A DNA stretch of 64,000 nt from a virus. The notes under the pieces are model-generated. The model searched no databases. It was not told the DNA's origin and worked only from the letters and a program-made list of their open reading frames with translations. The stretch covers positions 1 through 64,000 of IMG/VR virus record IMGVR_UViG_3300025666_000002; one strand, 5' to 3'. Below, piece by piece: positions 538 to 53,502 of this stretch (position 1 is the first letter of the stretch; each line of letters starts with the position of its first letter). The position numbers and the translations under genes are program-made.

Positions 538-885
538 TTAGTCTTCTTTTTCGTCAACTAGGTACATGAAGTTAGATGGGATAACCATCTTTTGTATTTT
601 TAGAGCTTTGAGTAAAAGACCAACAATTAAACCACCTGGCATAACTGCTATTGCACTTAACCCAATAGTCTTTAATACATCTTTAAGTTGATTGCCAATT
701 TCTGTGCGCTCTTCGTCTGTTACCTCTTCTCCATGTCTTACGGATCTGTAGATTTTAGAAAAGGCATCTTTAGTTTCTTTACTCTCCTTTGCAAGAGCTT
801 TAAAGAATTTAGAAGTTGACTTACCTAAACTTTTTAAACGCGGGTCCTCATTAACAAAACCTTCAAATAATTGTACTTTTCTCAT
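538..885 (-). CDS. Small protein with capsid-targeting-like N-terminus and hydrophobic LETM1-like segment
   Basis: 115 residues. The N-terminus MRKVQLFEGFVNED matches the F-x-x-F-V-N-E pattern shared with other genes here and resembling the T4 capsid targeting sequence, so this may be an internal head protein cut after VNE. The C-terminal half has a hydrophobic stretch (about residues 75-95, containing MPGGLIVGLLL) followed by IPSNF. That layout resembles the PGG...lPSxF block of LETM1-like proteins, but the similarity is weak. It sits between the small and large terminase genes with 2-base gaps on each side, which is an unusual place for an extra gene. Function unknown. Confidence 0.8.
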   Translation of the reverse strand: MRKVQLFEGFVNEDPRLKSLGKSTSKFFKALAKESKETKDAFSKIYRSVRHGEEVTDEERTEIGNQLKDVLKTIGLSAIAVMPGGLIVGLLLKALKIQKMVIPSNFMYLVDEKED

Positions 886-887
886 CT

Positions 888-1556
888 TTATATTTCATCT
901 GTTTCTACATCTTCAACGTCTTCGATGTCTTCAATGTCTTGTTGGTTAATGCCTTGCTGAATGGCATGCATTAGATCTTTAGTTCCACGCTGTACGTTTC
1001 TGCTGCTACTGTCACCACCGGCTTCTTCAATCTCACGTTTGTCATCTCTCTTCTTATAGATCTCAATATCACGTGCTATTCTTTTAGTAGCCTCTTCAGC
1101 TGCCATCAGGTACATGGTTTGAGATTTGATGATGTCTAACATTGATTTCTGCAGAGTTGCAAGTACTTCAAACATTCTTGGTGCTAATTCACCGTTGTCA
1201 ATTGTTTGTAATAATGTAGTCAGGGCTCTTTCACCAGCTTGGAGCTGATAGATTAATGATGACATTGTCATCTCATCCATCTTCTTTTTGGCTTGAATAT
1301 ATTCATCTTTCTCGATAATATCTGCATCGAGATAGAATTTCATTAGACTTGTAATGGTCTTCTTGGCCTTCTTGGTTGAGCTTGCTTTCATCTCACCGTA
1401 GTTAGCCGGAGCCATTAACTGTGTATTTCTCTGTGTTGCTGGCAGGTCTCTTGGATCAGATTCAACGTCAATTGACTCTTCATCACCGATTAGATTATCA
1501 AGTTCACGTCTAATCTCGTCTGCCTGCTCAGATATACTTCTTTTATCTTCGCTCAT
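888..1556 (-). CDS. terS: Terminase small subunit gp16
   Basis: 222 residues, mostly helical. In T4 this protein recognises DNA for packaging and stimulates gp17. The central block APRMFEVLATLQKSM aligns with the T4 gp16 block SPRHMEVFATLMGQM as I recall it, and coiled-coil segments surround it. The tail is strongly acidic (ED/VED repeats). Position just ahead of gp17, with one small gene between, supports the call. A GATATATAG element lies 19 bases upstream of the ATG. It is longer than T4 gp16 (164 residues), mainly through N- and C-terminal extensions. Confidence 0.85.
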   Translation of the reverse strand: MSEDKRSISEQADEIRRELDNLIGDEESIDVESDPRDLPATQRNTQLMAPANYGEMKASSTKKAKKTITSLMKFYLDADIIEKDEYIQAKKKMDEMTMSSLIYQLQAGERALTTLLQTIDNGELAPRMFEVLATLQKSMLDIIKSQTMYLMAAEEATKRIARDIEIYKKRDDKREIEEAGGDSSSRNVQRGTKDLMHAIQQGINQQDIEDIEDVEDVETDEI

Positions 1557-1574
1557 AAGTTGTGCTTTTATATG

Positions 1575-1583
1575 CTATATATC
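1575..1583 (-). promoter_or_regulatory. Late-promoter-like element upstream of terS
   Basis: GATATATAG on the minus strand, ending 18 bases before the terS ATG. It belongs to a recurring GATATATA(A/C/G/T) motif in front of virion genes and resembles the T4 late -10 box TATAAATA. Confidence 0.55.
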
Positions 1584-1587
1584 TAGA

Positions 1588-3528
1588 TTATCTAGACTGA
1601 CTGTACCTTCTTAATTGAATTGAAGGAATAGCATTGTCGATTACATGTGCTAACTGCGAGTCTCTAACAACATACTGCTGTAAGACATTCATCTGTTGAT
1701 CTTGGCCTACTGTCTGACTAAAGATTCTAATGTTAGTCACATCTAGTTTCGCTGGCTGTAACATCCAGTTCTTAGTAGGTTCCCAGGTACGAGCATTCGT
1801 AAACGACTTGGTTTGATTTAGTTTTAAGACTAAAGTTTTACTAGAATTACTTGCCGCCTGTCTGTTGCTGTTAGGATCTAGACGATATAAATTACAAGAC
1901 ATCTGTCTGTACTTATTACTTAGATTATAGACTAGACCATACCAAACATTATTCTCAAGTGCCAAAGCACTACCGAATATATGTGTACCGTTGTTAAGAT
2001 AGACTTTAATGCTAGAGCCGTTGGTTGTTATTTTTAAACCATTTTGATTAGAATAGCCATCGATGATAACCTGTTCTGTTGTATCAACCAACTTTGGTCT
2101 AAACCAAATAGTCACTGCAAGATTCTCTTCCTCTGTTAAGCTTGAAACCTTATTGTAAGCTACAAGTTCCATTGATTTATCCGGAGTTGAGTCTAGATCA
2201 TAATTGTTCTTAGAGACTACAGTCCACTGATTTCTTAATTCAGCATCTGAGATTGTAAGTTTCTTGTGTAGTCTAGCTCTAACACCATCGCCGACCTCAG
2301 CAAATACAGTTTTGTACTGTGTTGGTTTGGTTACCTTCTCGAATTCTTCTTGTCTCTCTTCACCAAAGACTTCTTCTACGCCAGTTGTTAGTGCATCAAG
2401 TTCTTGCTCTACTGTTTCATCTTCATGGATATTGCTAGTACGCTCTTCATATTTGCGCAGCATTAGTTTCCAGTAAGTTAGGTCCAGATTAAACTCATCT
2501 GCATATGCAATTGAGCTAACCTCATACATACGGTTCATTTTTGGAAAGTAGAGATAGTCTCTGCTGCGTGGGCTTGGCCCAATACCAAATGCTGTCTCAA
2601 ACTGCGTCTTGGTTAGGTGGATTTCAAACTCATCGAAGCCCATACCAAAAATGTCATAGTTAAACTCTCTTGTTGGAAATTCGTTGCCCGGCACCATGAT
2701 CTTTAACTCAGCCGACTCTTTTACGTTATAGAGTGAATACTCTTTTAAGATTACGTCACGACTACGATCATCTGGCTCAACTCTAAAGTATTTTACTGGA
2801 TGGCCCCACATTTCAGTTGAAACGTCTGTAATTTGACGGTAAACTGAAGTTGGTTTAGTTAAGGCATATGGGTCCCACATTTCATCTGTACATTCTGCTA
2901 TGATATTTGCACAACCTGTCATTGCATATGGGTCTACACATTCACCACAGAATTCTGGACAGCTAATAATTGTACCATCAGCAGTACTTAGTTCATAAGT
3001 CAATGAAAGTAGTGTTATCTTGTTAACATTGCTTAGTCTATCAACTTCTAGCCTAAGTTCAATCCAAAGCGGTTGATCTGGGTCAAAATTAAGTCCTAGT
3101 AGATCATATGGTCCATTGTTAGTTGTCAAAGGTAGTAGCTGGCTCATTTCACCAGGCTCTTCACCTTGTGACCAACGGTATTGATATGTAAAAAGATTGT
3201 TTGCGTCTTCTGGTAAATAGAAAGTCAGACCACTTGCTGTAAATGTCGGTGCTTGTGTAACTGTAAACGTATTCGCGTCAACTACTTGGTCGACTGTATA
3301 GTATTCATTACCTACGATAAACTGATCTCCTGAGATTAAACTCAAGTTCGTGTTAGTGCCAGTAACTGTGGTAGATGCAGCCACAAAGTTAAGAGTGCCA
3401 CTAGTGTTTGGTGTACTAACACCAACAACTGATGTCCAGCTTAAAACGCTTTGTACGTTTAAGTATGGATTTTCTAGCTTTGCATATATTACATCACCGA
3501 TCTGGTCTGCTGTAAAATTATTTACCAT
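1588..3528 (-). CDS. Virion structural protein with C-terminal LamG/concanavalin-like domain
   Basis: 646 residues. The C-terminal third (about residues 450-630) has the pattern of a jelly-roll lectin (LamG/ConA-like) domain: VTIWFRPKLVDTTEQVIIDG, then NNVWYGLVYNLSNKYRQM. The N-terminal third has a Thr/Val-rich beta segment (GTNTNLSLISGDQFIVGNEY) like those in phage tail or fibre proteins. A Cys-rich patch (CPEFCGEC, about residue 190) could bind metal or form disulfides. It is preceded by a late-promoter-like element and followed by the terminase genes. Probably a neck, tail or decoration component; I cannot name a T4 counterpart. Confidence 0.7.
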   Translation of the reverse strand: MVNNFTADQIGDVIYAKLENPYLNVQSVLSWTSVVGVSTPNTSGTLNFVAASTTVTGTNTNLSLISGDQFIVGNEYYTVDQVVDANTFTVTQAPTFTASGLTFYLPEDANNLFTYQYRWSQGEEPGEMSQLLPLTTNNGPYDLLGLNFDPDQPLWIELRLEVDRLSNVNKITLLSLTYELSTADGTIISCPEFCGECVDPYAMTGCANIIAECTDEMWDPYALTKPTSVYRQITDVSTEMWGHPVKYFRVEPDDRSRDVILKEYSLYNVKESAELKIMVPGNEFPTREFNYDIFGMGFDEFEIHLTKTQFETAFGIGPSPRSRDYLYFPKMNRMYEVSSIAYADEFNLDLTYWKLMLRKYEERTSNIHEDETVEQELDALTTGVEEVFGEERQEEFEKVTKPTQYKTVFAEVGDGVRARLHKKLTISDAELRNQWTVVSKNNYDLDSTPDKSMELVAYNKVSSLTEEENLAVTIWFRPKLVDTTEQVIIDGYSNQNGLKITTNGSSIKVYLNNGTHIFGSALALENNVWYGLVYNLSNKYRQMSCNLYRLDPNSNRQAASNSSKTLVLKLNQTKSFTNARTWEPTKNWMLQPAKLDVTNIRIFSQTVGQDQQMNVLQQYVVRDSQLAHVIDNAIPSIQLRRYSQSR

Positions 3529-3550
3529 TGAGGCTTAAGTCTGTATTTTG

Positions 3551-3560
3551 TTTATATATC
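3551..3560 (-). promoter_or_regulatory. Late-promoter-like element
   Basis: GATATATAAA on the minus strand, 22 bases before the ATG at 3528. It overlaps the stop codon of the upstream gene, so the virion gene can be expressed separately from the replication genes ahead of it. Confidence 0.6.
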
Positions 3561-4202
3561 AGACTCAATATCGGTGATTAAGAGTATTTCTGGGTTATCA
3601 GTCTCATATGCCTCAAAGTATTGTATCATCGCATTGAGTATAGTGAAGATTTCATTTGTGTTGTTTGCAACAAGATAGTTATCAATCTTGTTCATTAACT
3701 CATTAGTCTTAACCACTTTAAAATATTCACCTGAGTTTAACAGATCCATCTTATTTAAAAGCTTATTAATAACATAAGTTTGATGGCTGTTAAAATGGTC
3801 AAAGACTCTGAAAGTACCTCTTAGTGTTTTAATACTGAACTTGATAGTTTTAATCTGCTCGATCTCAACTATGCGTTTATAGCTCATGTTCTTATTGAGA
3901 TTGACTTTAAGCCATCTAAGACTAGTCATATTCTCAAAAATCTTTTTAATAAAGTAGATTGTGGTTGCCTCTTTGTGTAATAGACTTTCACCGACTGAGT
4001 CTATTATGTTTAGATCATCATAGAAGTATTCGTTAACTACATTTTTAAGATCATTTGCAGAAATCAAGACAGAGTCCTTAGCTAGCTCTTTAGAATTATA
4101 ATGGCGCTTGAGTAAGCCCCATAGTTTTAAATCTATTGAGTTATACTTGTAGAGTGTAATATCTACAACTTCTGAAAATGTATCTTTATTTTGAGTAAAC
4201 AT
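3552..4202 (-). CDS. Protein of unknown function
   Basis: 216 residues from the ATG at 4202 (MFTQNKDTFSEVV). An in-frame ATG at 4217 would add five residues. I prefer 4202 because it gives a short 17-base overlap with the upstream gene, typical of this operon. The protein is rich in Lys, Asn and Ile, largely helical, with no membrane segment or recognisable motif. It is last in a run with gp44, RNase H and a gp62 candidate, so a replication or transcription role is possible but not shown. It ends in an acidic tail (ITDIESDI). Confidence 0.75.
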   Translation of the reverse strand: MFTQNKDTFSEVVDITLYKYNSIDLKLWGLLKRHYNSKELAKDSVLISANDLKNVVNEYFYDDLNIIDSVGESLLHKEATTIYFIKKIFENMTSLRWLKVNLNKNMSYKRIVEIEQIKTIKFSIKTLRGTFRVFDHFNSHQTYVINKLLNKMDLLNSGEYFKVVKTNELMNKIDNYLVANNTNEIFTILNAMIQYFEAYETDNPEILLITDIESDI

Positions 4203-4614
4203 CAACCTGCTCTTCAATCTTTTTTAAGTCGGCGTATAGACTTTCTTTGGCAAACTGCTCAAGTTCTTTAAACTCTCTGTTGCCAATTTCATTCTTCTCC
4301 ATATAGATTCTAACGGCACCTTCGCTTGGAATATATTTATCCTTGGCTGTGGTCTTAGCCTTTTTAGTTTTAGTGTACCACCAGCCGGGCACAGACTTAA
4401 ATCGCATAGCGACCATGCTCCATGATTCTACAACTGCAGCTCCGTTGATCCCGTTGTGATTAAAGAGATTAGCGTTACTTGGGAACTTAATAGCAAAGAA
4501 GCGATTAATCATAAAGTGATGGCGCTTCTTGTTGTGGTTCTTAATTTTATAAAATTGATCTCGCTTCGTAAACATGATCTTTACGAAGTCAAATAGTTTA
4601 GTTTCGTCTAACAT
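4186..4614 (-). CDS. 62: Possible clamp-loader small subunit (gp62-like)
   Basis: 142 residues. In T4, gp62 forms the sliding-clamp loader with gp44, which here lies two genes upstream. The patterns FMINRFFAIKFPSNANLFNH and MRFKSVPGWWYTK recall, from memory, the short loader A subunits of T4-like phages (xxINRxxS...xxN...RFxxWxxK), followed by a helix EFKELEQFAKESL. The match is not strong and the protein is shorter than T4 gp62 (187 residues). Context is the main support. The alternative is an unrelated small replication-operon protein. Confidence 0.45.
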   Translation of the reverse strand: MLDETKLFDFVKIMFTKRDQFYKIKNHNKKRHHFMINRFFAIKFPSNANLFNHNGINGAAVVESWSMVAMRFKSVPGWWYTKTKKAKTTAKDKYIPSEGAVRIYMEKNEIGNREFKELEQFAKESLYADLKKIEEQVDVYSK

Positions 4615-4615
4615 A

Positions 4616-4792
4616 TTATTTTATCCAGTCTAAAAATGCTAAATGGTAAGCATCCAGTAAAGTAAATTCTGTGTCGGATGAGCGTTCTTTCCATATTTTT
4701 TCAGCACTCTCTTTGACTTCCAGTCTTAAACCATGAGCATTAGCTTCGGATAAAATCTCTTGTATCGTAATCTCTTCTTGTAAAGTATGCAT
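4616..4792 (-). CDS. Small protein of unknown function (58 residues)
   Basis: A 58-codon frame starting MHTLQEEITIQEILSEA and ending LAFLDWIK. Its ATG overlaps the stop of the RNase H gene as TAATG, and its stop lies one base before the ATG of the next gene, so it fills an otherwise empty gap and is probably translationally coupled. The composition is that of a soluble helical protein. No family recognised. Confidence 0.7.
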   Translation of the reverse strand: MHTLQEEITIQEILSEANAHGLRLEVKESAEKIWKERSSDTEFTLLDAYHLAFLDWIK

Positions 4793-6066
4793 TAGAATAA
4801 GTTGTTTAAGTTTTTAGTCTTAGGTGCTGTTTTTGTTTCTCTGTCCGTGCTCTTTTTACCAACCAGTTTCATTGGCTTTACCGGCTCTTCTTCTGGAATA
4901 TCCATACCTGCAAATACATCTGGGCCAGCGTTATGCTTCTTCTCTAGCCAATCAGTACCTGCTAGGATCTTGTCCATTTTAAGTAGAGTTTCAACGTTAT
5001 TTAAGGCACCTTCCCAGTCAGTTTCAATAGCTGCAAAGATAGCTTTCTGAATAGCATCTGGAATAGTTCTAGTATGTAGCAACATCAATGCAATATTCTT
5101 AGTCAGGCCAGCCTTAATCAAGTTTGTATTACTGTGGCCGACAACTCTGTAGATAATATCGGATAATGCGTCTTTGTGCTCTGTAGAAAAAAGATAGTCA
5201 ATTGTAAAATCTGCATGTTCTTTTGTAAACTGATCGTAGATCTTATCAGCCATTTTATCAGTAATTGAGTAAGTTCTCAACTTACCATTCTTCATCTCTT
5301 TCTGCCAAGTCACAACTGACTGGATGTTATCCGACTTGTCACCTACAAGCATCTTAGTAAAGATAAAACGATCACAGTCAACTTCTTCAATTGTAACTTT
5401 ATTTTCTTTTACCCAGTCTAAGATTCTAGTCTGATAGTCGTCTCTAAGCATATGCTGACCGCCCATGTTGAATAACATGGCGTCTCTATCCATTTTCTGT
5501 GCTGCAGACTTTTCCATGTCTTCAACAAAACCAGGATATGCATACAGAGTTCTCTTAGTGTTATAGTACCAGATTGTATGTGCGTCGTTTGCAGTTGAAT
5601 GATTAACTAATTGGATTAAGTCACGGTCACCAGTCCAAACGATACAGCTTTTGCCGCGATCGTTCAGCATTGTTGACCAACCAAAGAGAACATCATCTGC
5701 TTCAGCACCGCTGATCTGATGTACTGTTACACCATGCTCTTGCATGATCTTTTGGAATTCTTCATAAATTGAGTAAACTGCAGTCCAGTCTACATCACTC
5801 TTTTGTTTTCTAGTACCTTTGTATTCTGCTTCTGGGTATAGGTCTTTACGCCAAGACTTAGAGTCAACTGCGATGACAACGTCATCCACAAAACATTTAA
5901 GCTTGCGCATCTCAGATGCAAAGTCAATTGACAGTTTACGCATAAACTGTGCTTTTTGTTTATCATCACCTAGAAGCATACCGCTCTTAGGTTTAGGCAG
6001 AACAAAAAGGCGGCTAAAGACAAAGTAGTTGCCGTCTATTAATAGTGTATGTTTTCCCACCTTCAT
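4792..6066 (-). CDS. rnh: RNase H / FEN-type 5'-3' exonuclease
   Basis: Removes RNA primers from lagging-strand fragments, as T4 RNase H does. 424 residues from the ATG at 6066 (MKVGKHTLLIDGNYFVFSR). The longer frame to 6114 runs over a promoter-like sequence and was rejected. Metal-site motifs of the PIN/FEN fold are visible: LLIDGNY near the start, AEADDVLFGW, WTGDRDLIQL and MLVGDKSDNI (helix-2-turn-helix region). It is longer than T4 RNase H (305 residues), with an extra C-terminal part that ends NLNNLF, a candidate sliding-clamp-binding tail like those of the gp33 candidate and polymerase here. It follows the gp44 gene. Confidence 0.9.
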   Translation of the reverse strand: MKVGKHTLLIDGNYFVFSRLFVLPKPKSGMLLGDDKQKAQFMRKLSIDFASEMRKLKCFVDDVVIAVDSKSWRKDLYPEAEYKGTRKQKSDVDWTAVYSIYEEFQKIMQEHGVTVHQISGAEADDVLFGWSTMLNDRGKSCIVWTGDRDLIQLVNHSTANDAHTIWYYNTKRTLYAYPGFVEDMEKSAAQKMDRDAMLFNMGGQHMLRDDYQTRILDWVKENKVTIEEVDCDRFIFTKMLVGDKSDNIQSVVTWQKEMKNGKLRTYSITDKMADKIYDQFTKEHADFTIDYLFSTEHKDALSDIIYRVVGHSNTNLIKAGLTKNIALMLLHTRTIPDAIQKAIFAAIETDWEGALNNVETLLKMDKILAGTDWLEKKHNAGPDVFAGMDIPEEEPVKPMKLVGKKSTDRETKTAPKTKNLNNLF

Positions 6067-6089
6067 ATTGTTATCTTTTACGTACAGTA

Positions 6090-6097
6090 CAAATATA
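6090..6097 (-). promoter_or_regulatory. Bacteroidota-type promoter element upstream of rnh
   Basis: TATATTTG on the minus strand fits the Bacteroidota -7 consensus TAnnTTTG and sits 23 bases upstream of the rnh ATG. The extended sequence TTATTATATTTGTACTGTA is nearly repeated at about 38305-38320. The -33 region (T-rich) is only a partial match. Confidence 0.45.
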
Positions 6098-6140
6098 ATA
6101 AAAATATTTGACACTGAAAAATTATTTTACAAAAATCTTG

Positions 6141-7097
6141 TTATTCTCTTACAATAGTCTGGATCTCATATACACAGCTTAACATGGTTACAACAGGATC
6201 GATTACATGGACTCTTTGTGCTTGGTGCTTAGCCACTGTAATAATAATCTGTGGTATATGTTTTACGCTTTGAGATCTTTCTTGTTTTATATATTCGACA
6301 AAGTCATCGCCTAGTGTCTGTAAGATGTCATCTGTCTTTGAAGCGTAATTGCTTACCAAGAGCTGATAGTTCTTAGCTGGATCTGTCTCGTTAAAGATTA
6401 GATCAAAAACATCTTTATAGACTGAGTTGAAGCGTTTAACTTCTGCTTCAGTAATATGGTTTGTACCTTGTGTTTTATAGCCCTGTAGCTTATTCAAGGT
6501 GCTTCTTAGATCTGGGAAGTTACGACGTACAAACTCAACTAATGCTGGTTTTTCAATTGTCATCTCTTCTTGGTTACAGATATTATAAACACGCTTGATA
6601 TATTTCTTAGTCAATTCAGCCTCTTCTTCCTTGTCAAAGTCAAAGTTAATTACTTCAAATCTGCTTAAGATTGGATCTGGTAATTTATTGATGTAGTTAC
6701 ATGTTGCAATAAAGCGGCTGTTACTTGCAAATATCTCCATTGTCGCACGCAGTGCTTTAAAGAACTGATCCGATACACCGTCAACCTCATCTAGGATTAC
6801 AACTTTAAAGCTGCCTGGTTTGTCCATAATTGAAACCGTTGAACAGAAGTCAGTGATTCTAGTTCTAATCACGTCAACCGAAGTATCTGTTGATGCGTTA
6901 ATATAGAGATAAGGCAATTCAAATTGATTGACGATTGCTTTAGCTGCTGATGTTTTACCAGTTCCAGGACTGCCTGCAAACAGCATATTCTGAACTAGGC
7001 CATCTTTAAACTTATTCATTACACGATCTGGTAAGATCAACTCGCTTAAATCTTTTGGACGATACTTCTCTGTGAAGAGCTGGTTTATTGACTGCAT
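6141..7097 (-). CDS. 44: Sliding-clamp loader large subunit gp44
   Basis: 318-residue AAA+ ATPase that loads gp45 onto DNA. FTEKYRPKDLSEL at the N-terminus is the RFC/clamp-loader signature. Walker A is GSPGTGKT (42-49), Walker B is VVILDEVD (99-106), and LSRFEVINFDF is the sensor/SRF region. Length matches T4 gp44 (319). Its start lies in the 62-base divergent region with the only plus-strand gene, so its promoter must lie there or within that gene. Confidence 0.95.
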   Translation of the reverse strand: MQSINQLFTEKYRPKDLSELILPDRVMNKFKDGLVQNMLFAGSPGTGKTSAAKAIVNQFELPYLYINASTDTSVDVIRTRITDFCSTVSIMDKPGSFKVVILDEVDGVSDQFFKALRATMEIFASNSRFIATCNYINKLPDPILSRFEVINFDFDKEEEAELTKKYIKRVYNICNQEEMTIEKPALVEFVRRNFPDLRSTLNKLQGYKTQGTNHITEAEVKRFNSVYKDVFDLIFNETDPAKNYQLLVSNYASKTDDILQTLGDDFVEYIKQERSQSVKHIPQIIITVAKHQAQRVHVIDPVVTMLSCVYEIQTIVRE

Positions 7098-7159
7098 ATA
7101 AGTTACTTTTGTATCTTATATGAAAGCTGGCCTCTTAGTTTCACTGATAGATAGTATAT

Positions 7160-7672
7160 ATGGCTAGATCTTACGCTGACATTAGAATTGAGAGAACCGG
7201 TGGTAGTTATCCAATCAACCGATATGGTATTAAACTGAAGCCTCTTCAGAAAAAGCACCGTAGATTCTTGGTTGAAAATCGTCATATCAAGAAGTGGTCT
7301 GGTGATGACCAGTTTATTCACTGCGTCCTTAGAATGCAGAAAGTCAGCACAAAGGATAGTACTGCATACAAAACATACTTTGATTGGCAATCTGAGCGCC
7401 CTGTGGACATTAACGAGTTTAAAGAGAGTGTCAACACAGTTAATTGGTTATGTGCCATCAGCGGCAAACCAATCAAGTCTAAGTTTATGAATTTTGATCT
7501 TGAGAACTTTGTCCACCCAGAATACCATGATGTCTTAAAGGCTCCAATGGTCGACAGCAGGATTCTTAAGAGTTCAATTGAGTTTCGCCGTAAATGTAAA
7601 GAACTCCTGCTCAATGAGAGACAGGAGTTCCTAGATCTTGCAAAGAAGAATGCTAAGCGTAAATTAGATTAA
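7160..7672 (+). CDS. Protein of unknown function; only plus-strand gene
   Basis: 170 residues, very basic (Lys/Arg-rich, ends KKNAKRKLD), beginning MARSYADIRIERTGGSYPIN. There is no membrane segment. The reading frame, composition and codon use look real, whereas the opposing minus-strand frames are Ser/Leu-rich shadows. It diverges from gp44 and converges on the next minus-strand gene, with overlapping stop codons (7669-7672). GATAGTATAT lies directly upstream of its ATG. The basic composition suggests nucleic-acid contact, but I recognise no family. Confidence 0.8.
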   Translation: MARSYADIRIERTGGSYPINRYGIKLKPLQKKHRRFLVENRHIKKWSGDDQFIHCVLRMQKVSTKDSTAYKTYFDWQSERPVDINEFKESVNTVNWLCAISGKPIKSKFMNFDLENFVHPEYHDVLKAPMVDSRILKSSIEFRRKCKELLLNERQEFLDLAKKNAKRKLD

Positions 7673-8529
7673 GCTTCGCTATCTTCAGTTTCTTCTTTAT
7701 CTTTAAATTCTTGTTGAAGCTTTTCTTTTTCAGCCTCAATTCTGGCTAAGTCTTCTTTAGAAGCATTCTTAACCTTTTCTTCTGCGGCTTTCTTTTCTTC
7801 TTCAGCCTTCTTTAATCTTCTATCTAGTGATCTTACTGCATTACGGTAAGTCTTTTGGTATCTTTCTTTTTCTGTATCTGTAAGAAGTTTTGAGTCTAAC
7901 ATAAACTGAGCGATTTCCATTCTAACCTCAGAATTTAGAGTGCCTATAAAATCTTTATATTTTGGGTACTTTTCAATCAGAGCGCCGTTCATGTCTTCTG
8001 CTGCCTGTCTTAACTCTTCGATCTTTTTATTAAATTCTTTAACTTTCTGTCTTGATCTATCATCAAAGTCTTGCTTCTTATAATCTCTAAGTTCTTTTAC
8101 GTAGATCTCCATCTTTGCAGCTTTTATCTTATTAGCTCTAACCACTTTTTTGTGTTTAGCTCTAATTTTAGCTTTAGTAACTGCTCTTTTAATTAGTATT
8201 CCAACACCTACACCAGCAGCTGCAACAACACCAGCTGCAATTACTGGAATCATATATAACTCTGCCGACACAATCTGATCTACAGTACCTTCATTAAGTT
8301 GTGATTCATTTGCAAATTCCTCAACATCTTCCATGTTATTTGCAAGGTATTCAAGTTTGTTAATAATGGTATCAACATCTTTTACAATATCTGTTCTAAT
8401 GCCTGGTTTTGCATCTACGTTAATATCAACACCCTGTTTAACGTCAACATTGCTAACCTTAGTATCTACTGCAGTTCTCGTCTCAGCAAATTCTTCAAAA
8501 AGCATTAATTTATTCTTAAGCTTCATCAT
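7669..8529 (-). CDS. Candidate internal head protein with membrane segment and coiled coil
   Basis: 286 residues. The start is MMKLKNKLMLFEEFAET; the first or second Met gives the motif LFEEFAE that parallels the T4 capsid targeting sequence. A second cleavage-like site occurs at SQLNEGT (about residue 77). A glycine/alanine-rich hydrophobic segment (MIPVIAAGVVAAAGVGVGIL, about 91-110) could span a membrane. It is followed by a basic helix and a long Lys/Glu coiled coil that ends acidic (EETEDSEA). It lies downstream of the capsid gene and its terminator, with its own GATATATAA element. A protein that enters the cell with the DNA and acts at the membrane is plausible. Confidence 0.8.
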   Translation of the reverse strand: MMKLKNKLMLFEEFAETRTAVDTKVSNVDVKQGVDINVDAKPGIRTDIVKDVDTIINKLEYLANNMEDVEEFANESQLNEGTVDQIVSAELYMIPVIAAGVVAAAGVGVGILIKRAVTKAKIRAKHKKVVRANKIKAAKMEIYVKELRDYKKQDFDDRSRQKVKEFNKKIEELRQAAEDMNGALIEKYPKYKDFIGTLNSEVRMEIAQFMLDSKLLTDTEKERYQKTYRNAVRSLDRRLKKAEEEKKAAEEKVKNASKEDLARIEAEKEKLQQEFKDKEETEDSEA

Positions 8530-8556
8530 ACTCTTATTTTTTTTAGTATCTTTGTA

Positions 8557-8565
8557 TTATATATC
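8557..8565 (-). promoter_or_regulatory. Late-promoter-like element
   Basis: GATATATAA on the minus strand, about 28 bases upstream of the ATG at 8529 and just downstream of the capsid-gene terminator. It gives the internal-protein gene its own late start. Confidence 0.6.
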
Positions 8566-8579
8566 AGACTTCTATAAAC

Positions 8580-8607
8580 AAAAAAGAGGCCCTCAAATGA
8601 GAGCCTC
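8580..8607 (-). terminator. Rho-independent terminator after the capsid gene
   Basis: On the minus strand GAGGCTCTC, loop ATTT, GAGGGCCTC, then TTTTTT. It lies 31 bases past the capsid stop codon. Confidence 0.85.
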
Positions 8608-8637
8608 TCTTATATAAACGTGTTATCTAGTTAAAGA

Positions 8638-10116: not shown

Positions 10117-10157
10117 TTTTGAATGATCTTTTTTTGTTTGTTTATTCGACATTCGAT

Positions 10158-10179
10158 GGGCTTTCTGCTTCTTTAGCCC
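10158..10179 (-). promoter_or_regulatory. Leader hairpin in capsid mRNA
   Basis: On the minus strand GGGCT, a 12-base loop, then AGCCC, between the late-promoter-like element and the capsid start. It may stabilise the 5' end or affect translation. There is no U-run, so it is not a terminator. Confidence 0.4.
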
Positions 10180-10194
10180 TATTCGTCGATCAGT

Positions 10195-10203
10195 TTATAT
10201 ATC
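10195..10203 (-). promoter_or_regulatory. Late-promoter-like element upstream of the capsid gene
   Basis: GATATATAA on the minus strand, 79 bases before the chosen capsid ATG. This is the longest leader among the head genes that carry this element. Confidence 0.6.
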
Positions 10204-10232
10204 TTCTTAATTTTTGCTTTTTTGCAAAAGTT

Positions 10233-10260
10233 AAAAAGGAGAGTGAATTAACACTCTCCC
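10233..10260 (-). terminator. Rho-independent terminator after the protease-scaffold gene
   Basis: On the minus strand GGAGAGTG, loop TTAATT, CACTCTCC, then TTTTT. It lies between the protease-scaffold stop and the capsid promoter. Confidence 0.85.
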
Positions 10261-10287
10261 CTTAAATTTATAGAATGAACAGATAGA

Positions 10288-12492: not shown

Positions 12493-12514
12493 TCTATGTG
12501 TTTTTCTATTTTTA

Positions 12515-12523
12515 ATATATATC
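12515..12523 (-). promoter_or_regulatory. Late-promoter-like element
   Basis: GATATATAT on the minus strand, 23 bases before the protease-scaffold ATG. Confidence 0.55.
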
Positions 12524-12547
12524 AGCTTTGCTTATGTAAATATCTTA

Positions 12548-12904: not shown

Positions 12905-12907
12905 AAT

Positions 12908-12916
12908 CTATATATC
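12908..12916 (-). promoter_or_regulatory. Late-promoter-like element very close to a start codon
   Basis: GATATATAG on the minus strand with only 3 bases before the ATG at 12904. If used as a promoter it would give a nearly leaderless mRNA, so it may be fortuitous or may mainly serve the gene further downstream. Confidence 0.4.
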
Positions 12917-12918
12917 TT

Positions 12919-14523: not shown

Positions 14524-14544
14524 ATTATGATAGTATTTTCAATT

Positions 14545-14553
14545 TTATATATC
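14545..14553 (-). promoter_or_regulatory. Late-promoter-like element upstream of the portal gene
   Basis: GATATATAA on the minus strand, 22 bases before the portal ATG and directly after the TAG stop of the upstream gene. Confidence 0.6.
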
Positions 14554-45032: not shown

Positions 45033-46316
45033 TTATCTACCGTATTTTATAAAACCCATAAGCTGGTTAACTGCAGCGAATGTTCCTGTTAGCTTCATAG
45101 TCTTGCCTTTGTATCTAAAGACAATACCCTCTGTTGGTATAATTGATTCGATACCTCCGATTCTTTCAAGTCTTTCAAGTTCTTTAGCAACTTTTTCAAT
45201 GTCCGAAACATCACCGCTTTTTCTAACTGCTTCCGCTTCATCTTTTAATTGCTTTTGTAGTCTCTGCATTTCTGCAGCTGGATTAGCAGCCACAAAGTTA
45301 GATGCGTTCTTTAAGATAACACTACCTAGTTCAAGAAATAAATCTTCAAAAGGTCTCATGTTCTCTTTTTGTTTTTTCTTTACATCTTCTTTGTCAAACT
45401 TTTTAATTAGAGCAGCTTTATCTTTACCTAACTCTTTATCAAGACTTCTTATATTAAGAGTCTTCTTATCATCATACGCCCATCTTAATAAAAGTCCTTC
45501 TTTGTGATCTTGTGTTAGATCCGGAAAGTTCTTATCGATAGTTTCTCTCCACCACATTTCATGATACATAGAAACTTCATCAGCATCTGTTAAGTTGTAC
45601 TGTTTACGTAGATCTTCAATTTGTTTAAGGAATTTAGCTTTGTTTGCATCGAAGTCAATATCCTTACCCATTTTAATGATTTGTGGTGGGATAATTGAAA
45701 ATGTTTTACCCATATCAAGTTTAAGGTCTTTAAGAACCTTTGCAATTGATGCTGCGTATTTTGTTTCATCTCCTATTTCATTACCATCACCATCAGTATG
45801 TTTAATACCATGGAATTGAATAACATCCCTGTCGTAATAAATTACATTTGGGTTCTTCGAGTAGATTAGCTCCATATTCATAAAACTCTTACCATTATTA
45901 AAAACCTCTAAGTCTTTTGCTGGTAGCTTATTTAATGAATTTGCTAAATCTTCTGCTGCGAATTGAAAAGTATCTCTTACTAGTGGACTTTTATGTGCTT
46001 CAAACTTTTGTTTAAAAGTTTTTAGATCCATTGGATTCCTCATATCATTAATACCTCTGGCAAATTTAACCTCACCATCCATTACAGTTGCAAATAAGTT
46101 TTGTCCGTCGGTCTTTTCGGTAACTTCTTCTTCAAAGTTAAGTTCGCCTCTTAAGCCAAACTCAACGATCTTTTTAAAGTCACCAAATGTCAATTCTTTT
46201 TCGTCGAACGGATGCGACATATGACCAGCTGCACCGCCCTCTAGAATGAGATTTGCATCTACCGGAGCAGATGCTTTCTCAACTAAAAATTCTTGATATG
46301 AAAGTAATTTTCTCAT
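45033..46316 (-). CDS. Ligase/nucleotidyltransferase-like protein with capsid-targeting-like N-terminus
   Basis: 427 residues, starting MRKLLSYQEFLVEKASAPVD. Motifs of the covalent nucleotidyltransferase superfamily can be read in order: VTEKTDGQNLFA (K68-T-D-G, motif I), KSFMNMELIY (motif III-like), PTEGIVFRYKG (396-400, motif IV) and MKLTG (407-411, motif V). Between them lies an unusually long helical insertion with a Lys/Glu coiled coil (about 300-385). This suggests a polynucleotide ligase or capping-type enzyme, probably non-canonical. It lies next to the adenylyltransferase fusion, and the two may form one pathway. Confidence 0.65.
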   Translation of the reverse strand: MRKLLSYQEFLVEKASAPVDANLILEGGAAGHMSHPFDEKELTFGDFKKIVEFGLRGELNFEEEVTEKTDGQNLFATVMDGEVKFARGINDMRNPMDLKTFKQKFEAHKSPLVRDTFQFAAEDLANSLNKLPAKDLEVFNNGKSFMNMELIYSKNPNVIYYDRDVIQFHGIKHTDGDGNEIGDETKYAASIAKVLKDLKLDMGKTFSIIPPQIIKMGKDIDFDANKAKFLKQIEDLRKQYNLTDADEVSMYHEMWWRETIDKNFPDLTQDHKEGLLLRWAYDDKKTLNIRSLDKELGKDKAALIKKFDKEDVKKKQKENMRPFEDLFLELGSVILKNASNFVAANPAAEMQRLQKQLKDEAEAVRKSGDVSDIEKVAKELERLERIGGIESIIPTEGIVFRYKGKTMKLTGTFAAVNQLMGFIKYGR

Positions 46317-46337: not shown

Positions 46338-47903
46338 TTAGCCAAGTGAGCTTTGCAAAATACCTGCAGCCTTACCATAATCGCCATCAACTTTACCTAA
46401 GATACCATCGACAACTTCTTGCGCTTTTGCTTCATCAAAGTCTGCTCCAAATGCTTTTTGAAGTATTGTGAATGCATATTCTTTGAATTCATCATCAGAT
46501 TTAATTTCAGTCTCGTTTACTTCAACAGACTCTTTAAAATGCTCAATATCTTTGTAATTGATTTCAAACTCTTCACCATCTTGATCTAATGCAAATACTG
46601 AATCGTCATTCCACATATCTGTGTTTTCGTCATTACCGTTATCTGGATTATAGATGATGTACCATTTTCCATTAACTAGGATTTCAGCATCATCATGATT
46701 CTTGATTAACTTTAAAAGCTTCTTCTTATCGTATTTAGCTTCGTTTACTGATTCTTTAGCCTCATTGGTAGATTCTAATCTCTGTGATAATTCATAAAGC
46801 TTTTCAGTTCTAGAAACTCTTTTCTCTTCACCTTCAAACTGTGCATTAAAAGAGTCAAGAAGTGCTTGTGCCATGTTAGACTCTCCGATTTGATCTAAGT
46901 ACATTGCAAAACCTTCAGTAATACCAATACCTGACCAATCACCTGCATTTGCAAGATCTGAGTAGTATTTGTCTGCTATAGTTTTTATCGTCTTAGCTGA
47001 AATTCTAATAACTTCACCATCCAAGCCTTCTACTTTAACTTCTAGCGGGCTAATCTTACCCTTAATCATGTTCATTGTCACATTGGCCTCGCGTGAAAAG
47101 TTAGCGTCTTCCATTGCATAGAAATATAACTCTTTCAAGAAGCCTAGCATTGTTACTTTATCCGCAGCAAGAGCTGTTAACTTGGTATCAAATAATCTGG
47201 TTAGTCTTAAAGCTACTTTCTTGGCTGTTCTCTTACCACTGATTGCAATAACAGCCTCGTTTACTGATTCAACTACTTGTAATACAGGGCTACCATAAGT
47301 ATCTCCCATGTACCACTTTCCATCTCGTTCATCATATAGATAAACGTATTCAGCTCCACCGTCATTAGCAACTTCTTTAAAGTAACCTTTAATGTCAGCT
47401 GCGTTGGTCCATGTAGTAGTCATATCTTTGTTCTCTCCGCGATCTCTACCGTAGAATAGAGTGGTTCCCCTTACTGGACTATTAAAGTCTTGCTTTTTAC
47501 CGATATTCTTGTCTAAATATGAGATACCAGACTTACCTAGTTTAACTAGTTGGTCAACACCTTTCTTGTCGTAGTTCTTAATCATTGGTACCATGTGGTC
47601 TGGATAACCATCATAGTGTACATAGACCGATGTAATCCTACCTTTCTTATCGATCTTCCCTACTTGAGATCTTGTGCCTTCTAGCAATAGTGCAGATTCT
47701 GTTAAAGTACCTAATCTCTCGTTAAATTTAGGCTTATCTTCTTCAGATAATTCACTCATTGAAGTTACACCGAATTCAGATAATAAGTCCTTAAAGCTAT
47801 TTGCTGAAGCTTCCCTTTTTGCATTCAACTCTTCCTCAAGTTGAACCTGATCTTTTTTTGCCTTTTGCTCAGCAAATTGTTCAAATGTTACTAATCGTTC
47901 CAT
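46338..47903 (-). CDS. Multidomain internal protein candidate
   Basis: 521 residues from the ATG at 47903 (MERLVTFEQFAEQKAKKDQV); the frame extends to 48023, but that part overlaps uvsW and a promoter. It carries the targeting-like start and several linkers that fit the protease: VVESVNEAVI, STNEAKESVNEAKY and SVEVNETEI. Domains include a segment around GKIDKKGRITSVYVHYDGYP and YDERDGKWYMGDTYG, a helical middle, and a C-terminal 50-residue unit (EFKEYAFTILQKAFG then YGKAAGILQSSLG) of a type that recurs in large phages. Probably packaged and cut into pieces; functions unknown. Confidence 0.75.
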   Translation of the reverse strand: MERLVTFEQFAEQKAKKDQVQLEEELNAKREASANSFKDLLSEFGVTSMSELSEEDKPKFNERLGTLTESALLLEGTRSQVGKIDKKGRITSVYVHYDGYPDHMVPMIKNYDKKGVDQLVKLGKSGISYLDKNIGKKQDFNSPVRGTTLFYGRDRGENKDMTTTWTNAADIKGYFKEVANDGGAEYVYLYDERDGKWYMGDTYGSPVLQVVESVNEAVIAISGKRTAKKVALRLTRLFDTKLTALAADKVTMLGFLKELYFYAMEDANFSREANVTMNMIKGKISPLEVKVEGLDGEVIRISAKTIKTIADKYYSDLANAGDWSGIGITEGFAMYLDQIGESNMAQALLDSFNAQFEGEEKRVSRTEKLYELSQRLESTNEAKESVNEAKYDKKKLLKLIKNHDDAEILVNGKWYIIYNPDNGNDENTDMWNDDSVFALDQDGEEFEINYKDIEHFKESVEVNETEIKSDDEFKEYAFTILQKAFGADFDEAKAQEVVDGILGKVDGDYGKAAGILQSSLG

Positions 47904-47940
47904 TATATGTTTCTTTGTTTTTAAATTTGTTATTACAGTA

Positions 47941-47949
47941 TTATATATC
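47941..47949 (-). promoter_or_regulatory. Late-promoter-like element
   Basis: GATATATAA on the minus strand overlapping the uvsW stop codon, 38 bases before the ATG at 47903. It separates the internal-protein island from the recombination genes. Confidence 0.6.
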
Positions 47950-49455
47950 ACCTTCAAAAGTGACGTTTTTAATATCGTACTTGAACTTCTGTTCCTTGTA
48001 GATCTTCTGTCTAGCTTTAGCATGTCGAATCAGGTAGTTATCCCAGTCCGGCAGACTAATATCATCTACAAAATCTATAATGTTAACTGAGTCTTTTGAA
48101 GAGTGTTGTCTAAGCCCTCGACCAATCGACTGGCGAATGATAACTTCAGACTTAAACGACTCTGTAAAGAATATGTTATGGATCTTTTTAATTGAAATAC
48201 CGGTCGAAAATGTACCATAAGAGGCTACAATCACCACTTCTTCACCCGCCTCCATCTTCTTCTTGTATTCTTCGCGAATATCTTTATCGGTACCGCCGTC
48301 GACATAGTAGACCCGTTTGTCACTCTCTTGGCGCAATTTCTCATAAATACGCTGACCATGTTCAATGCGGTGGAAAAGTACAAGGGAATTGCGTGGTATT
48401 CTGGAAATAACGTTACAAATAAAGTTGAGCCTACCTGGCGAATTGATAACGTAATTTTGTTCAAATTTAAAGACATCTTTGCTTTCATATTTATTGAATG
48501 CCATCTCTCTAAAAGCCTCTTTTGTAGACTCAGTAGCATAGTCCATCTTAATTACCTTTACATTACATTTAGCAATGTGACCTTCATTCTGTAGGTAATT
48601 GGCAGTCACCTCTGTAATTACAGGGCCTGTATGTGACATTAAGGTTAATCGGTCCAATGAACCTGGTTTAGGGATCGTACCTGATAGTCCGAATCTATAG
48701 TCTGCATTCTTACACTTAGATAGAATGGTTTTAATGGACTGTGACTTAGCTTTATGTGTCTCGTCAATGATAACTGCATCAAACTGATCGAAGTACTCAG
48801 CCTTCTTCTTAACAAGCGACTGGTATGTGCCGATCACAACATTACGCCCAGCTCTAATCTTCTGGCCACTGTAGATCTGCTGTACTTTAATACTAACTCT
48901 GTTTTGCCAGTTATAATCTAAGAAGTCTTCAGATGCTTGAACTACAAGCGAAACGTTAGGTACAATAAAGAGTATCTTCTCGGCCTTCTGCTTCTCTAAC
49001 GTATAAGCCACAGTCAAGAATGAGATTAAGGTCTTACCGGCTGATGTAGCCAGCTCTGCTAAACAGCGCCTAAATTTTAGGATGTTAAAAGCTGCGTCCA
49101 TCTGATAGTCTCTAGGTGAGATACCGTCTGGGTGACCGTCAAAAAAGTCTAACGCCCATTCTTCAAAAGCCTCTTGTTGAATGTTGCGGTCAAATAGTTC
49201 AGTGATGCCGTTCAGTTTTAGATCATAGTTATAATCTTTAGCAATCAACATAACTTCACGCCATAGGCCTGACGGGATCCACGTATCGTCTTTAATATAT
49301 GAGATGTAGCCATCCCAAAGACCTTTCTTTACCAACGGGTTAAAACGCCATGATTCAATCCTCTTATTTAAGGATATGTTGAGTTGCTCGAGCTCCATGT
49401 CTGTAGCCGAGTCAATTCGTAATAGCTGTTTATTTTCCGTTAGTGTAAGTTCCAC
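47941..49455 (-). CDS. uvsW: Recombination helicase UvsW (SF2)
   Basis: 504 residues (T4: 587). ATP-dependent helicase that unwinds R-loops and branched DNA. Motif I is ATSAGKTLIS, motif II VIIDETHKA, then GLSGTIPKPG (III), and the C-terminal RecA domain has TGISIKKIHN and IRQSIGRGLRQH (VI). The N-terminal domain is short. It is next to uvsY, as in T4. Confidence 0.95.
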   Translation of the reverse strand: MELTLTENKQLLRIDSATDMELEQLNISLNKRIESWRFNPLVKKGLWDGYISYIKDDTWIPSGLWREVMLIAKDYNYDLKLNGITELFDRNIQQEAFEEWALDFFDGHPDGISPRDYQMDAAFNILKFRRCLAELATSAGKTLISFLTVAYTLEKQKAEKILFIVPNVSLVVQASEDFLDYNWQNRVSIKVQQIYSGQKIRAGRNVVIGTYQSLVKKKAEYFDQFDAVIIDETHKAKSQSIKTILSKCKNADYRFGLSGTIPKPGSLDRLTLMSHTGPVITEVTANYLQNEGHIAKCNVKVIKMDYATESTKEAFREMAFNKYESKDVFKFEQNYVINSPGRLNFICNVISRIPRNSLVLFHRIEHGQRIYEKLRQESDKRVYYVDGGTDKDIREEYKKKMEAGEEVVIVASYGTFSTGISIKKIHNIFFTESFKSEVIIRQSIGRGLRQHSSKDSVNIIDFVDDISLPDWDNYLIRHAKARQKIYKEQKFKYDIKNVTFEGDI

Positions 49456-52140: not shown

Positions 52141-52359
52141 TTAGACTATTGTTTCAGTCGAGTTGAGAGTTAATATGTCTCCGTTTGAATCTTTCCACTT
52201 ACCATCCTCAGTCTTTAGCAACTTCGCTTTGTGTAGTAGTTCTTCGCGATCATCGTTTGAGATCGAACCGTGTAACACCATATTTGTTAGAATGCTATTA
52301 AGCTGGAAATATTCTGCCGTGCATAAACATCTACTCGTCATAGTATAATCTGCTTGCAT
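52141..52359 (-). CDS. Small protein of unknown function (72 residues)
   Basis: Starts MQADYTMTSRCLCTAEYFQL and ends DGKWKDSNGDILTLNSTETIV; a second ATG is available at residue 7. A GATATATAA element stands 3 bases before the first ATG, so the leader would be very short or the second start used. An opposing plus-strand frame of similar length looks like a shadow. Function unknown. Confidence 0.55.
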   Translation of the reverse strand: MQADYTMTSRCLCTAEYFQLNSILTNMVLHGSISNDDREELLHKAKLLKTEDGKWKDSNGDILTLNSTETIV

Positions 52360-52362
52360 GTA

Positions 52363-52371
52363 TTATATATC
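52363..52371 (-). promoter_or_regulatory. GATATATAA element
   Basis: Minus strand, 3 bases before the ATG at 52359. The stretch 52372-52479 upstream has no gene; it holds an inverted repeat (TTCAAC...GTTGAA, about 52388-52407) and A/T runs. Confidence 0.45.
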
Positions 52372-52479
52372 TAGCTAACAGATTGTTTCAACTGAAAAAA
52401 GTTGAAGTTTTTTTGAACCTTTTTGGAACAAATCCCCAGGGCTTGCATATAATAAATGTCTTTTCGGGGAGAGATAAGG

Positions 52480-53133
52480 TTAGGTTAGAGCTGGAGCAGA
52501 GATCATGGCTGCAAGAAAGAAAGCGTCGACGAGGTCATCAACAGGTTTAGGCACCTTTTTCCCACAGTCTAGCTCTTTAATCCGAGCGTAGAATGGACTC
52601 TTAAGCAGAGACTTGTCATCTATTGAATTAGCAACGAAAGCATCGAACACTTGAGACTTATTCATATTACCTTTACCAGCGAATTTCTTAATTGTCGTCG
52701 GAGCGACCGTTAGCAAATCTTCCGGCTGTAGAACTTTCAACATCTTTAGTTTTAAGATTGCTGCGCCGGCTGCCATATCGATCATATTGTTAGTACCCAT
52801 CTTTGAGCCGTATGAAGTTCCTTCGAATGCAATAGTAAATGAGTCGCCTGGAAAGGACTCTTGTAGAATGAGATTAATTATTTCATCAGCCATTCGATCG
52901 TAGCGCTTTACTTTTGCAAGTTCAGAGCCCGAATAGTTTTCATCATTTGTAAAATCTGGCTGAGTCACCATCGTTACATCTTGCAACATGCCTAATTCTT
53001 CTTGTAAGGCTTGTTCTTTCTTTGTGCCTGTCTTCGGCTTAATGTAACCAATAAATTTATACTTCTTACTCTTATCGTTATATAAGCAAATACCCGGAGA
53101 GTTTAAGGAGAAGTCAACTGCGATATAGTTCAT
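52480..53133 (-). CDS. RuvC-like resolvase/nuclease
   Basis: 217 residues. RNase H-fold nuclease pattern: YIAVDFSLNSPGIC (Asp7), IAFEGTSYGS (second acidic residue), MAAGAAILKLKML, KKFAGKGNMNKSQ and KPVDDLVDAFFLAAM with C-terminal acidic residues, as in RuvC-type Holliday junction resolvases. T4 uses endonuclease VII for this task, so here a RuvC-like enzyme may replace it in resolving branches before packaging. It abuts the next internal-protein gene. Confidence 0.8.
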   Translation of the reverse strand: MNYIAVDFSLNSPGICLYNDKSKKYKFIGYIKPKTGTKKEQALQEELGMLQDVTMVTQPDFTNDENYSGSELAKVKRYDRMADEIINLILQESFPGDSFTIAFEGTSYGSKMGTNNMIDMAAGAAILKLKMLKVLQPEDLLTVAPTTIKKFAGKGNMNKSQVFDAFVANSIDDKSLLKSPFYARIKELDCGKKVPKPVDDLVDAFFLAAMISAPALT

Positions 53134-53502
53134 TTAGAATCTTTTACCAAGACTAGCGCCTAAAGCAGCACCGACTAGTCTTGAAGTTAACAAGTCATAA
53201 AGTACACCTTTTTCAATACCCAATACCTTAGCAACCATTTTACCAACTGATTTACCAAGTGCGTATCCTGTTAAACCACCTAAGATAGAACCTAGAAAAC
53301 CTTCATTAGTCATCTCTTCATTAAGCCTTTCAATACTTAAGTTTCCATCAGCATCTGCGTATTGCTTCATGAATTCATCGATAGCAGCATCAACCTTAGC
53401 TTCTAATTCCGGAGTCCATTCTTCCTGTAAACCCTCTTTGATTAGTTCCATGTCGGTTTCTGTCACATGTTCTTCAACTAAGTATTTATTAAATGTCTTC
53501 AT
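53134..53502 (-). CDS. Candidate internal head protein with glycine-zipper membrane segments
   Basis: 122 residues. N-terminus MKTFNKYLVEEHVTETD resembles the targeting sequence (MKTF...LVEE). A second cleavage-like site, NEEMTNEGF, lies ahead of two Gly/Ala-rich hydrophobic stretches (GFLGSILGGLTGYALGKSVG and LVGAALGASLGKRF). After cleavage the product would be a small membrane-active peptide-like protein, possibly used when DNA enters the cell. It lies between a RuvC-like gene and tail genes. Confidence 0.7.
   Translation of the reverse strand: MKTFNKYLVEEHVTETDMELIKEGLQEEWTPELEAKVDAAIDEFMKQYADADGNLSIERLNEEMTNEGFLGSILGGLTGYALGKSVGKMVAKVLGIEKGVLYDLLTSRLVGAALGASLGKRF

Follow-up and report, generated by a model that had tools for sequence, protein, structure and literature searches.

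A capsid-targeting-like N-terminal peptide shared by many genes of an uncultured T4-like phage, and its resemblance to repeats of the prohead scaffold

We analyzed a 64,000-nucleotide stretch of viral DNA (positions 1 to 64,000 of IMG/VR record IMGVR_UViG_3300025666_000002, hereafter the window), which is part of a T4-like phage contig of 140,787 bases with 161 of its 174 called genes on one strand. The window holds a head module, in which prohead protease and scaffold form one protein, and a series of genes starting with a similar short peptide (Table 1). The original prediction, made from the DNA letters, had listed 11 such starts and compared them with the capsid targeting sequence (CTS) of T4 internal proteins. 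All 11 are present, on the minus strand, and the shared start (hereafter the tag) is very probably a packaging tag of the T4 CTS type.

The shared N-terminal peptide

As strict motif we used [FYW]xxF[VILA]x[ED] within the first 22 amino acids from the start, which is present in seven of the 11 named starts (885, 12904, 19753, 38898, 39780, 40610 and 46316). The other four are degenerate: 8529 (FEEFAET), 39316 (FESFLNP) and 47903 (FEQFAEQ) have no Glu in register, and at 53502 (FNKYLVE) the second Phe is replaced by Tyr. Orthologues of the proteins starting at 8529, 47903 and 53502 nonetheless retain a similar start. By eye, the literal pattern of the original prediction fits nine of the 11, but not 46316 (YQEFLV) and 53502 (FNKYLV), which have Val in the last place. 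Two of the starts lie inside longer frames: in the 39334-40092 frame the cargo truly begins at 39780, as does the orthologue in contig G004, and the start of the 46338-48023 frame is 47903, as set by orthologues.

Over the whole contig, the strict motif is found near the start of 14 of the 174 genes, where its frequency in the remaining proteome would predict 0.82. When the 22 N-terminal residues of each gene were shuffled 2000 times, on average 0.46 genes had the motif and never more than 4. One of the 14 (81041-82867, WPKFITD) looks like a chance hit. Besides the starts of the window, eight clear tagged genes are located outside it (contig positions 97314, 98036, 106502 with a GTG start, 116817, 117079, 117585, 122860 and 139380) and one more (123750-124196) in a longer contig, G001. 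The phage thus has about 16 clear tagged genes, plus degenerate, internal and C-terminal versions. Every G001 protein with a counterpart in the window contig (G000) is 100% identical to it; in the parts compared, the two contigs are one phage. Strict hits in G001 to G006 amount to 13/203, 4/218, 7/133, 11/206, 5/132 and 8/308 genes (0.6-1.4 expected), a few of them chance-like.

Table 1. Features of the window discussed in the text. A slash marks the predicted cut; tag, the shared CTS-like peptide; aa, amino acids.
Position	Strand	Feature	Basis
538-885	-	Tagged protein, 115 aa, MRKVQLFEGFVNE/D; C-terminal part hydrophobic, glycine-containing (by eye)	Strict motif
7669-8529	-	Protein adjoining major capsid gene, degenerate tag-like start LFEEFAET	N-terminal similarity to G002, G003, G005 proteins
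8638-10152	-	Major capsid protein (gp23-like), early LINEA	
10288-12492	-	Prohead protease fused to scaffold, 734 aa	Peptidase_S77 12079-12438 above cut-off; phrog_207 E 2.3e-43
11350-11643	-	Scaffold repeats with tag-like core YTEHVAE, YSEHVAE, YTEHVAE, FANYLAE, YVNYLKE, YAEYIAE	Spacing 28/14/14/21/14
12548-12904	-	Tagged protein MKIYNTFESFIKE/A, between portal and protease, the place of T4 gp67/gp68	T4 gene order
12919-14523	-	Portal protein (gp20-like)	
18401-19753	-	Tagged protein with AAA+ ATPase, MHFLDFNSFLNE/A, first domain, ALNE/A site, AAA+ part at residues 137-448	
19334-19342	-	Internal LNE site (ALNE/A), start of phrog_1250 match in AAA+ protein	
38380-38898	-	Tagged protein MKHLNNFESFVNE/S	Strict motif
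38903-39316	-	Tag-like start MKHLKNFESFLNP, no cleavage Glu	G003 relative MKHVKLFGELINES
39334-39780	-	Tagged protein MKHLKNFEQFINE/S, internal start in 252-aa frame	G004 orthologue begins here
40122-40610	-	Tagged protein MKHVKLFEQFLNE/D	Strict motif
40714-43158	-	Multidomain protein, 814 aa, without N-terminal tag	
42925-42933	-	Internal VNE of 814-aa protein, ESADVNE/AKITLKRRYTENHP	
43178-45022	-	Ligase-like + cytidylyltransferase/NMNAT-like protein, 614 aa	CTP_transf_like
43181-43207	-	C-terminal tag-like tail TFDQFTKNI after conserved ES, in 614-aa protein	
45033-46316	-	Tagged protein, RNA-ligase-like nucleotidyltransferase (resemblance), MRKLLSYQEFLVE/K, KTDG at residues 68-71	
46338-47903	-	Multidomain protein, degenerate tag MERLVTFEQFAEQ, several internal NE sites, phrog_1987 domain	G002, G005, G006 relatives align from here
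53134-53502	-	Tag-like start MKTFNKYLVE/E, glycine-zipper-like C-terminal half	Relatives in G002, G003, G005, G006

Conservation of the tag and its internal and C-terminal versions

A degenerate DNA pattern of the tag, scanned over IMG/VR, matched at least 118 stretches, in which 309 frames carry the tag near the start and 57 internally. After removal of the first 20 residues, 308 bodies fall into up to 182 clusters, an upper figure because some of the 309 frames (a few short or TTG-start ones) look spurious. Tagged genes often stand in tandem, with up to 13 in one stretch; the stretches L153, L246, L206 and L233, with 11-13 tagged genes each, resemble cargo islands. Among 125 cluster representatives (the longest ones, of at least 75 aa), the majority consensus reads MKxIKxFExFxNE, in which the search pattern itself imposes F, F and E, followed by just three isolated columns (K, I and D).

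Amino-acid similarity falls directly after the Glu of the tag. Within single loci, the synonymous divergence (pS) of the tag is 0.67 against 0.63 for the bodies, at a nonsynonymous divergence (pN) of 0.20 for the tag. For codons that were not forced by the search (380 within-locus pairs), the tag has a pN of 0.33 at a pS of 0.56, against a pN of 0.70 for the bodies. The change is abrupt: pN jumps to 0.66 at codon 14 and remains at 0.64-0.71 from there on.

Similar peptides also occur inside proteins. For the 814-aa protein, the relative in G006 begins MKKFEEFIGE/GKITLKRRYTENHP, and BLAST aligns the internal VNE with this IGE residue for residue (query 76 to subject 8). By eye, the tag of the G002, G003 and G005 relatives precedes the same sequence as the internal VNE/A, and the G004 relative has its tag ahead of the first domain. 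In a 306-aa GNAT protein (contig 96394-97314), a second tag lies at residue 105, followed by a domain that in G006 forms a tagged protein of its own. Furthermore, an 80-aa domain is common to the protease-scaffold, the 814-aa protein and the G003 and G005 relatives of 46338-47903. Over six contigs, internal [VIL]NE[ASG] sites are 2.0-fold enriched in strictly tagged proteins (10 in 49 proteins against 107 in 1122 others, p = 0.04), a modest effect. Taken together, these arrangements point to modular proteins in which predicted cut sites separate the domains, and we retain the polyprotein idea for those whose relatives start at the internal site.

The 614-aa protein has no N-terminal tag and ends in NEST..TFDQFTKNI. 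In six sequences (the others being 68-69% identical to that of the window) E601, S602, T606, F607, F610 and K612 of this tail are invariant. T4 Alt is likewise described as processed at its C-terminus (PMC9026906).

Scaffold repeats and known systems

The scaffold part of the fused protease contains copies of a core that resembles the tag. Because Tyr or His stands in place of the second Phe of the tag, we widened the motif for this search to aromatic-x-x-(aromatic/His)-aliphatic-x-Glu. The G000 scaffold has six copies, whereas shuffling the protein 5000 times gave 0.13 on average and never more than 2, and the protease-scaffold is the only protein with three or more such cores in each of seven contigs (5-6 copies each). 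The fusions of 14 further contigs (L274-L285, L287 and L288; some are near-copies) contain 5-13 copies, with 12 in L283 and 13 in L287, where the 14-residue period is unbroken (YSEYLAENxDKxI). Overall, 5-13 repeats are thus found across 21 contigs, often with a 14-residue period. Several of the 14 fusions also have a plain tag-like FFKFISE, FFKFINE, FFKFIAE or FFRFISE. The uncultured phage LR756500 has three tagged genes in the 41 kb examined and three repeat copies.

Seventeen contigs larger than 100 kb, all found by the tag, were drawn from 80 of the 118 loci (G004 and G006 were left out; G022/G024/G026 and G014/G025 look like near-copies). An S77 match is present in 15 of them (14 over cut-off, G018 only in a 132-aa frame) and a capsid protein in 14. 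A second small S77-like frame of 132 aa was observed in four of the 17 (the L286, L289 and L290 frames), three of which also have a full protease-scaffold fusion; L286, L289 and L290 contain no scaffold repeats.

The likeness to the T4 CTS proposed in the original prediction holds up: the aromatic-Phe-Glu spacing is that of ipII and ipIII, the window encodes a gp21-type S77 protease and the bodies are mostly unrelated to each other. T4 ipII and ipIII start MKTYQEFIAEA and are the sole fits to the strict motif among 43 T4 coding sequences (ipI and alt are outside this set). In T4 IPIII, residues 4 and 7 are reported from mutants to matter most for targeting, residues 8 and 10 for processing, and gp21 is reported to cut after L/I-x-E (PMC9026906); the conserved residues of the tag keep the relative spacing of these four positions. 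T-even internal proteins are likewise described as a highly diverse set in which the CTS alone is conserved (PMC3012670). The systems thus share a short N-terminal peptide (aromatic-x-x-Phe-aliphatic-x-Glu), diverse bodies and an S77 protease in the genome. Unlike T4 with ipII and ipIII, the window phage has about 16 clear genes, enzymes as cargo and internal and C-terminal versions, and its tag has a longer lead (Phe at 7, Tyr at 4 in T4) and usually Asn before the Glu. As with T4 gp21 and gp22, protease and scaffold are encoded beside the capsid gene, presumably with an L/I-x-E type cut motif, but here they are one protein (PTm1 is annotated so too) with tag-like repeats. T4 gp23 has FGSFLTEA with the Glu at residue 65, and removal of a 65-residue N-terminal region is described for it (PMC9958956).

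A looser parallel is seen in Sphingomonas phage PAU, for which Sphingobacterium was proposed as host (PMC3738902). Five PAU genes are labelled 'internal capsid protein' in the record, and gp142, gp154, gp199 and gp270 start MK-x4-LYEA or LYEN, with three of the four continuing as KLNEA. Of 296 PAU genes, 27 have a loose start (MK-led, L(Y/F)E), where 5.5 would be expected, whereas the strict motif is found in 0 of 295 (1.2 expected); compared with the window phage, the second aromatic is usually missing. The PAU major capsid protein was considered and set aside: its reported mature length of 520 places the cut after residue 65, which is not clean support because the nearest L-x-E (ALME) ends one residue before, at 64.

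Giant-phage ejection proteins (SPN3US, phiKZ) also carry propeptides processed by the prohead protease on packaged proteins, but several of these exceed 100 residues, with 20 in SPN3US gp45 (PMC5694885). Polyvalent proteins and MuF- or portal-fused effectors are comparable as multidomain proteins predicted to enter with the DNA; they differ in that the accounts cited here propose them from domain fusions, with no short cleavable tag (PMC9503650, PMC7824862).

Compared with the phage collection, the capsid protein is most similar to those of an uncultured 462-kb phage, of Prevotella Lak phages, of other uncultured huge phages and of Tenacibaculum phage PTm1, and because of these matches a Bacteroidota host is likely. 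A search for near DNA matches among phages with window positions 1-20000 returned none. Elsewhere in the window, 26137-27345 and 31265-32668 (minus strand) resemble by eye two parts, C-terminal and N-terminal respectively, of a single family B DNA polymerase. Between the parts of this putative split polymerase lie frames resembling genes for ribonucleotide reductase and a clamp.

In the upstream regions of the genes of G000, G004 and G006, TATAAATA and AAGGAG occur at shuffle level, and AAGGAG, AGGAG and GGAG are found upstream of none of the tagged genes (0/14, 0/11 and 0/8, respectively). Some looser words exceed the shuffles: TAAATA in G004 (43 against 29, in 5 of 11 tagged genes), GGAG in G004 (8 against 4.6) and AAGAG in G006 (21 against 11, in 0 of 8 tagged genes). 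ATATATA is the top upstream 7-mer by enrichment in each of the three. These counts support neither late expression nor Shine-Dalgarno starts.

Cargo and interpretation

The original prediction had named an AAA+ ATPase and a ligase-like protein among the cargo. Both descriptions stand as family or fold resemblance, though the Pfam AAA match (AAA_16) of 18401-19753 lies below cut-off. When this protein is compared with phages, 14 of the best 15 of 1231 matches begin at query residues 89-129 and one at 27. The 45033-46316 protein resembles, on its predicted structure, an RNA-ligase-like nucleotidyltransferase: the 13 top entries of the structure comparison are all ligases (best Z 5.8; Foldseek E 0.07; model pLDDT 72), and KTDG is invariant in 14 sequences. 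It has no Pfam match, and a search of PDB sequences with the alignment of this type returned only RsgI2 (E 0.06). The N-terminal part of the neighboring 614-aa protein gives T4 RNA ligase 2 in Foldseek (E 1.6e-6, low-confidence model with pLDDT 55), and its CTP_transf_like match scores 31.4 bits against a cut-off of 21. Microcystis phage Mel-JY01 (L291) has an untagged homologue of the 45033-46316 protein (35%) in one 640-aa protein, in which a cytidylyltransferase-like part precedes the ligase-like domain; the window has domains of these kinds in adjacent genes.

Other cargo of the window phage comprises GNAT, ATP-grasp R2K and DUF5661. The family libraries were searched with the 125 representatives of the 182 clusters, and the Pfam families found in relatives include RimK-like ATP-grasp, cREC, SNase, cytidylyltransferase, GNAT, AAA and 2H, each in one of the 125 and among the best 25 of 35 families. 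The 2H/Acb1-like proteins were checked singly: L207:979-1518 is above both cut-offs (Pfam 2_5_RNA_ligase2 and Acb1), L127:6068-6625 above that of 2_5_RNA_ligase2 only, and L247:1757-2359 at the latter and below that of Acb1. Tagged proteins of this kind thus occur in related phages and may have anti-CBASS activity. For RNA ligases, 2H and cREC domains, a role at entry in mending cleaved RNA or clearing signal nucleotides would be plausible; from head-protein fusions, others have proposed that 2H and Nudix domains are packaged (PMC9503650). The T4 IPI-IPIII family was not found among the Pfam and PHROG matches of the scanned proteins, the bodies never having been compared directly.

As to the remaining proteins, that of 538-885 has an identical copy in G001 and no match in the five other contigs. 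That of 7669-8529 contains ANES and LNEG at residues 73-80, ahead of a hydrophobic segment (by eye), and the Gly-zipper match of 53134-53502 is below cut-off. The 39334-40092 frame carries DUF3008 and a GSGDVPAGxGDAEEEYKKK-like linker upstream of the tag, in frame; this module precedes different bodies in G002 and G003, and G004-G006 have the linker without DUF3008.

The best overall explanation, in which we place good confidence, is a T4-type CTS that is cut by the S77 protease after its Glu and docks on the scaffold; targeting, cleavage and docking are what we infer from the sequence. The 13-residue propeptide would carry the protein into the prohead core during assembly, after which the S77 prohead protease would cut behind the Glu and leave the mature protein in the head. 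Given that the tag core (aromatic-x-x-aromatic-aliphatic-x-Glu) resembles the repeat of the protease-fused scaffold, we lean slightly towards docking of the tag as an extra scaffold unit in this clade; cutting of this kind would both release the cargo and dismantle the scaffold. It seems reasonably likely that some of the cargo, at least, is injected into the host, and RNA-ligase-like and other enzymes would then act before phage gene expression. The 'broad injected proteome' of the original prediction exceeds what the sequence supports, packaging itself being predicted.

Several observations weigh against this explanation. Four of the 11 named starts are incomplete, missing either the Glu in register or the second Phe. 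The strict motif does not match the scaffold repeats, with their Tyr or His at the second Phe. T4 gp22 was examined and has no such repeats although T4 has tags, so that scaffold resemblance is not needed in T4; PTm1, with its annotated fusion, has no repeats either and 0 tagged genes among 24 called in 25 kb. The 2.0-fold enrichment of internal sites, obtained without picking, is weaker than the 5-fold one in a hand-picked set ([VILM]NE[ASGTDEK]). The surveyed contigs were all found by the tag, so the association of tag and protease offers no comparison. All 14 sequences compared of the 45033-46316 family have F10 and E13, but nine were motif-picked, and only the other five (window, G002, G003, G005 and G006), which also have both residues, test conservation of the motif. 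PAU gp70 and the 'internal capsid vertex' proteins gp1 and gp10 are without the peptide, and the PAU label may not rest on virion analysis.

The tagged proteins might alternatively be parts of the prohead core or scaffold that are mostly degraded rather than delivered. The 12548-12904 protein, acidic by eye and at the gp67/gp68 place, is a probable prohead core protein, which is more likely than an effector role, and several proteins have several internal NE sites. For the tagged set as a whole we nonetheless consider this unlikely, as some bodies are recognizable enzymes (GNAT, ATP-grasp, cytidylyltransferase, SNase, 2H, AAA). It is quite improbable that the start is a mere recognition site, with aromatics at P7 and P4 aiding the S77 protease and core entry achieved by other means. 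Scaffold repeats and tag do have a similar core including the Glu, as expected of two substrates, but the presumed internal sites (ESADVNE/A), whose cleavage is itself predicted, lack the aromatics, 38903-39316 retains the aromatics without the Glu, and the T4 IPIII mutants separate targeting from processing residues (PMC9026906). Recent gene duplication or a repeated DNA element without a functional peptide might be read from the tandem arrangement, but is highly improbable given a tag pS as high as that of unrelated bodies, the low tag pN (also at unforced codons) and the number of body clusters.

Building on the T4-type CTS, we tentatively propose a possible model in which the tag is a one-unit copy of the scaffold repeat. 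By gaining such a unit at the start, as a C-terminal tail or internally by a cut site, a protein might enter the core and be released, and an environmental T4-like clade might in this way bring exchangeable enzymes (RNA-ligase-like, nucleotidyltransferase, 2H/Acb1-like, GNAT, ATP-grasp) to the host before phage genes are expressed.

The principle of a packaging tag is known from T4. As far as the open-access literature shows, what is new is the number of tagged genes, with stretches of up to 13, the enzyme cargo, the scaffold repeats and the presence of tags at the C-terminus and inside proteins. How certain proteins are localized in the T4 scaffolding core is termed 'mysterious' in a 2023 review (PMC9958956), and a scaffold with up to 13 tag-like cores provides a concrete, testable docking model. 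For uncultured phages, the tag would be a label for packaged proteins that can be read from the genome, and among the proteins it marks are enzymes that might help overcome host defences as the phage enters.

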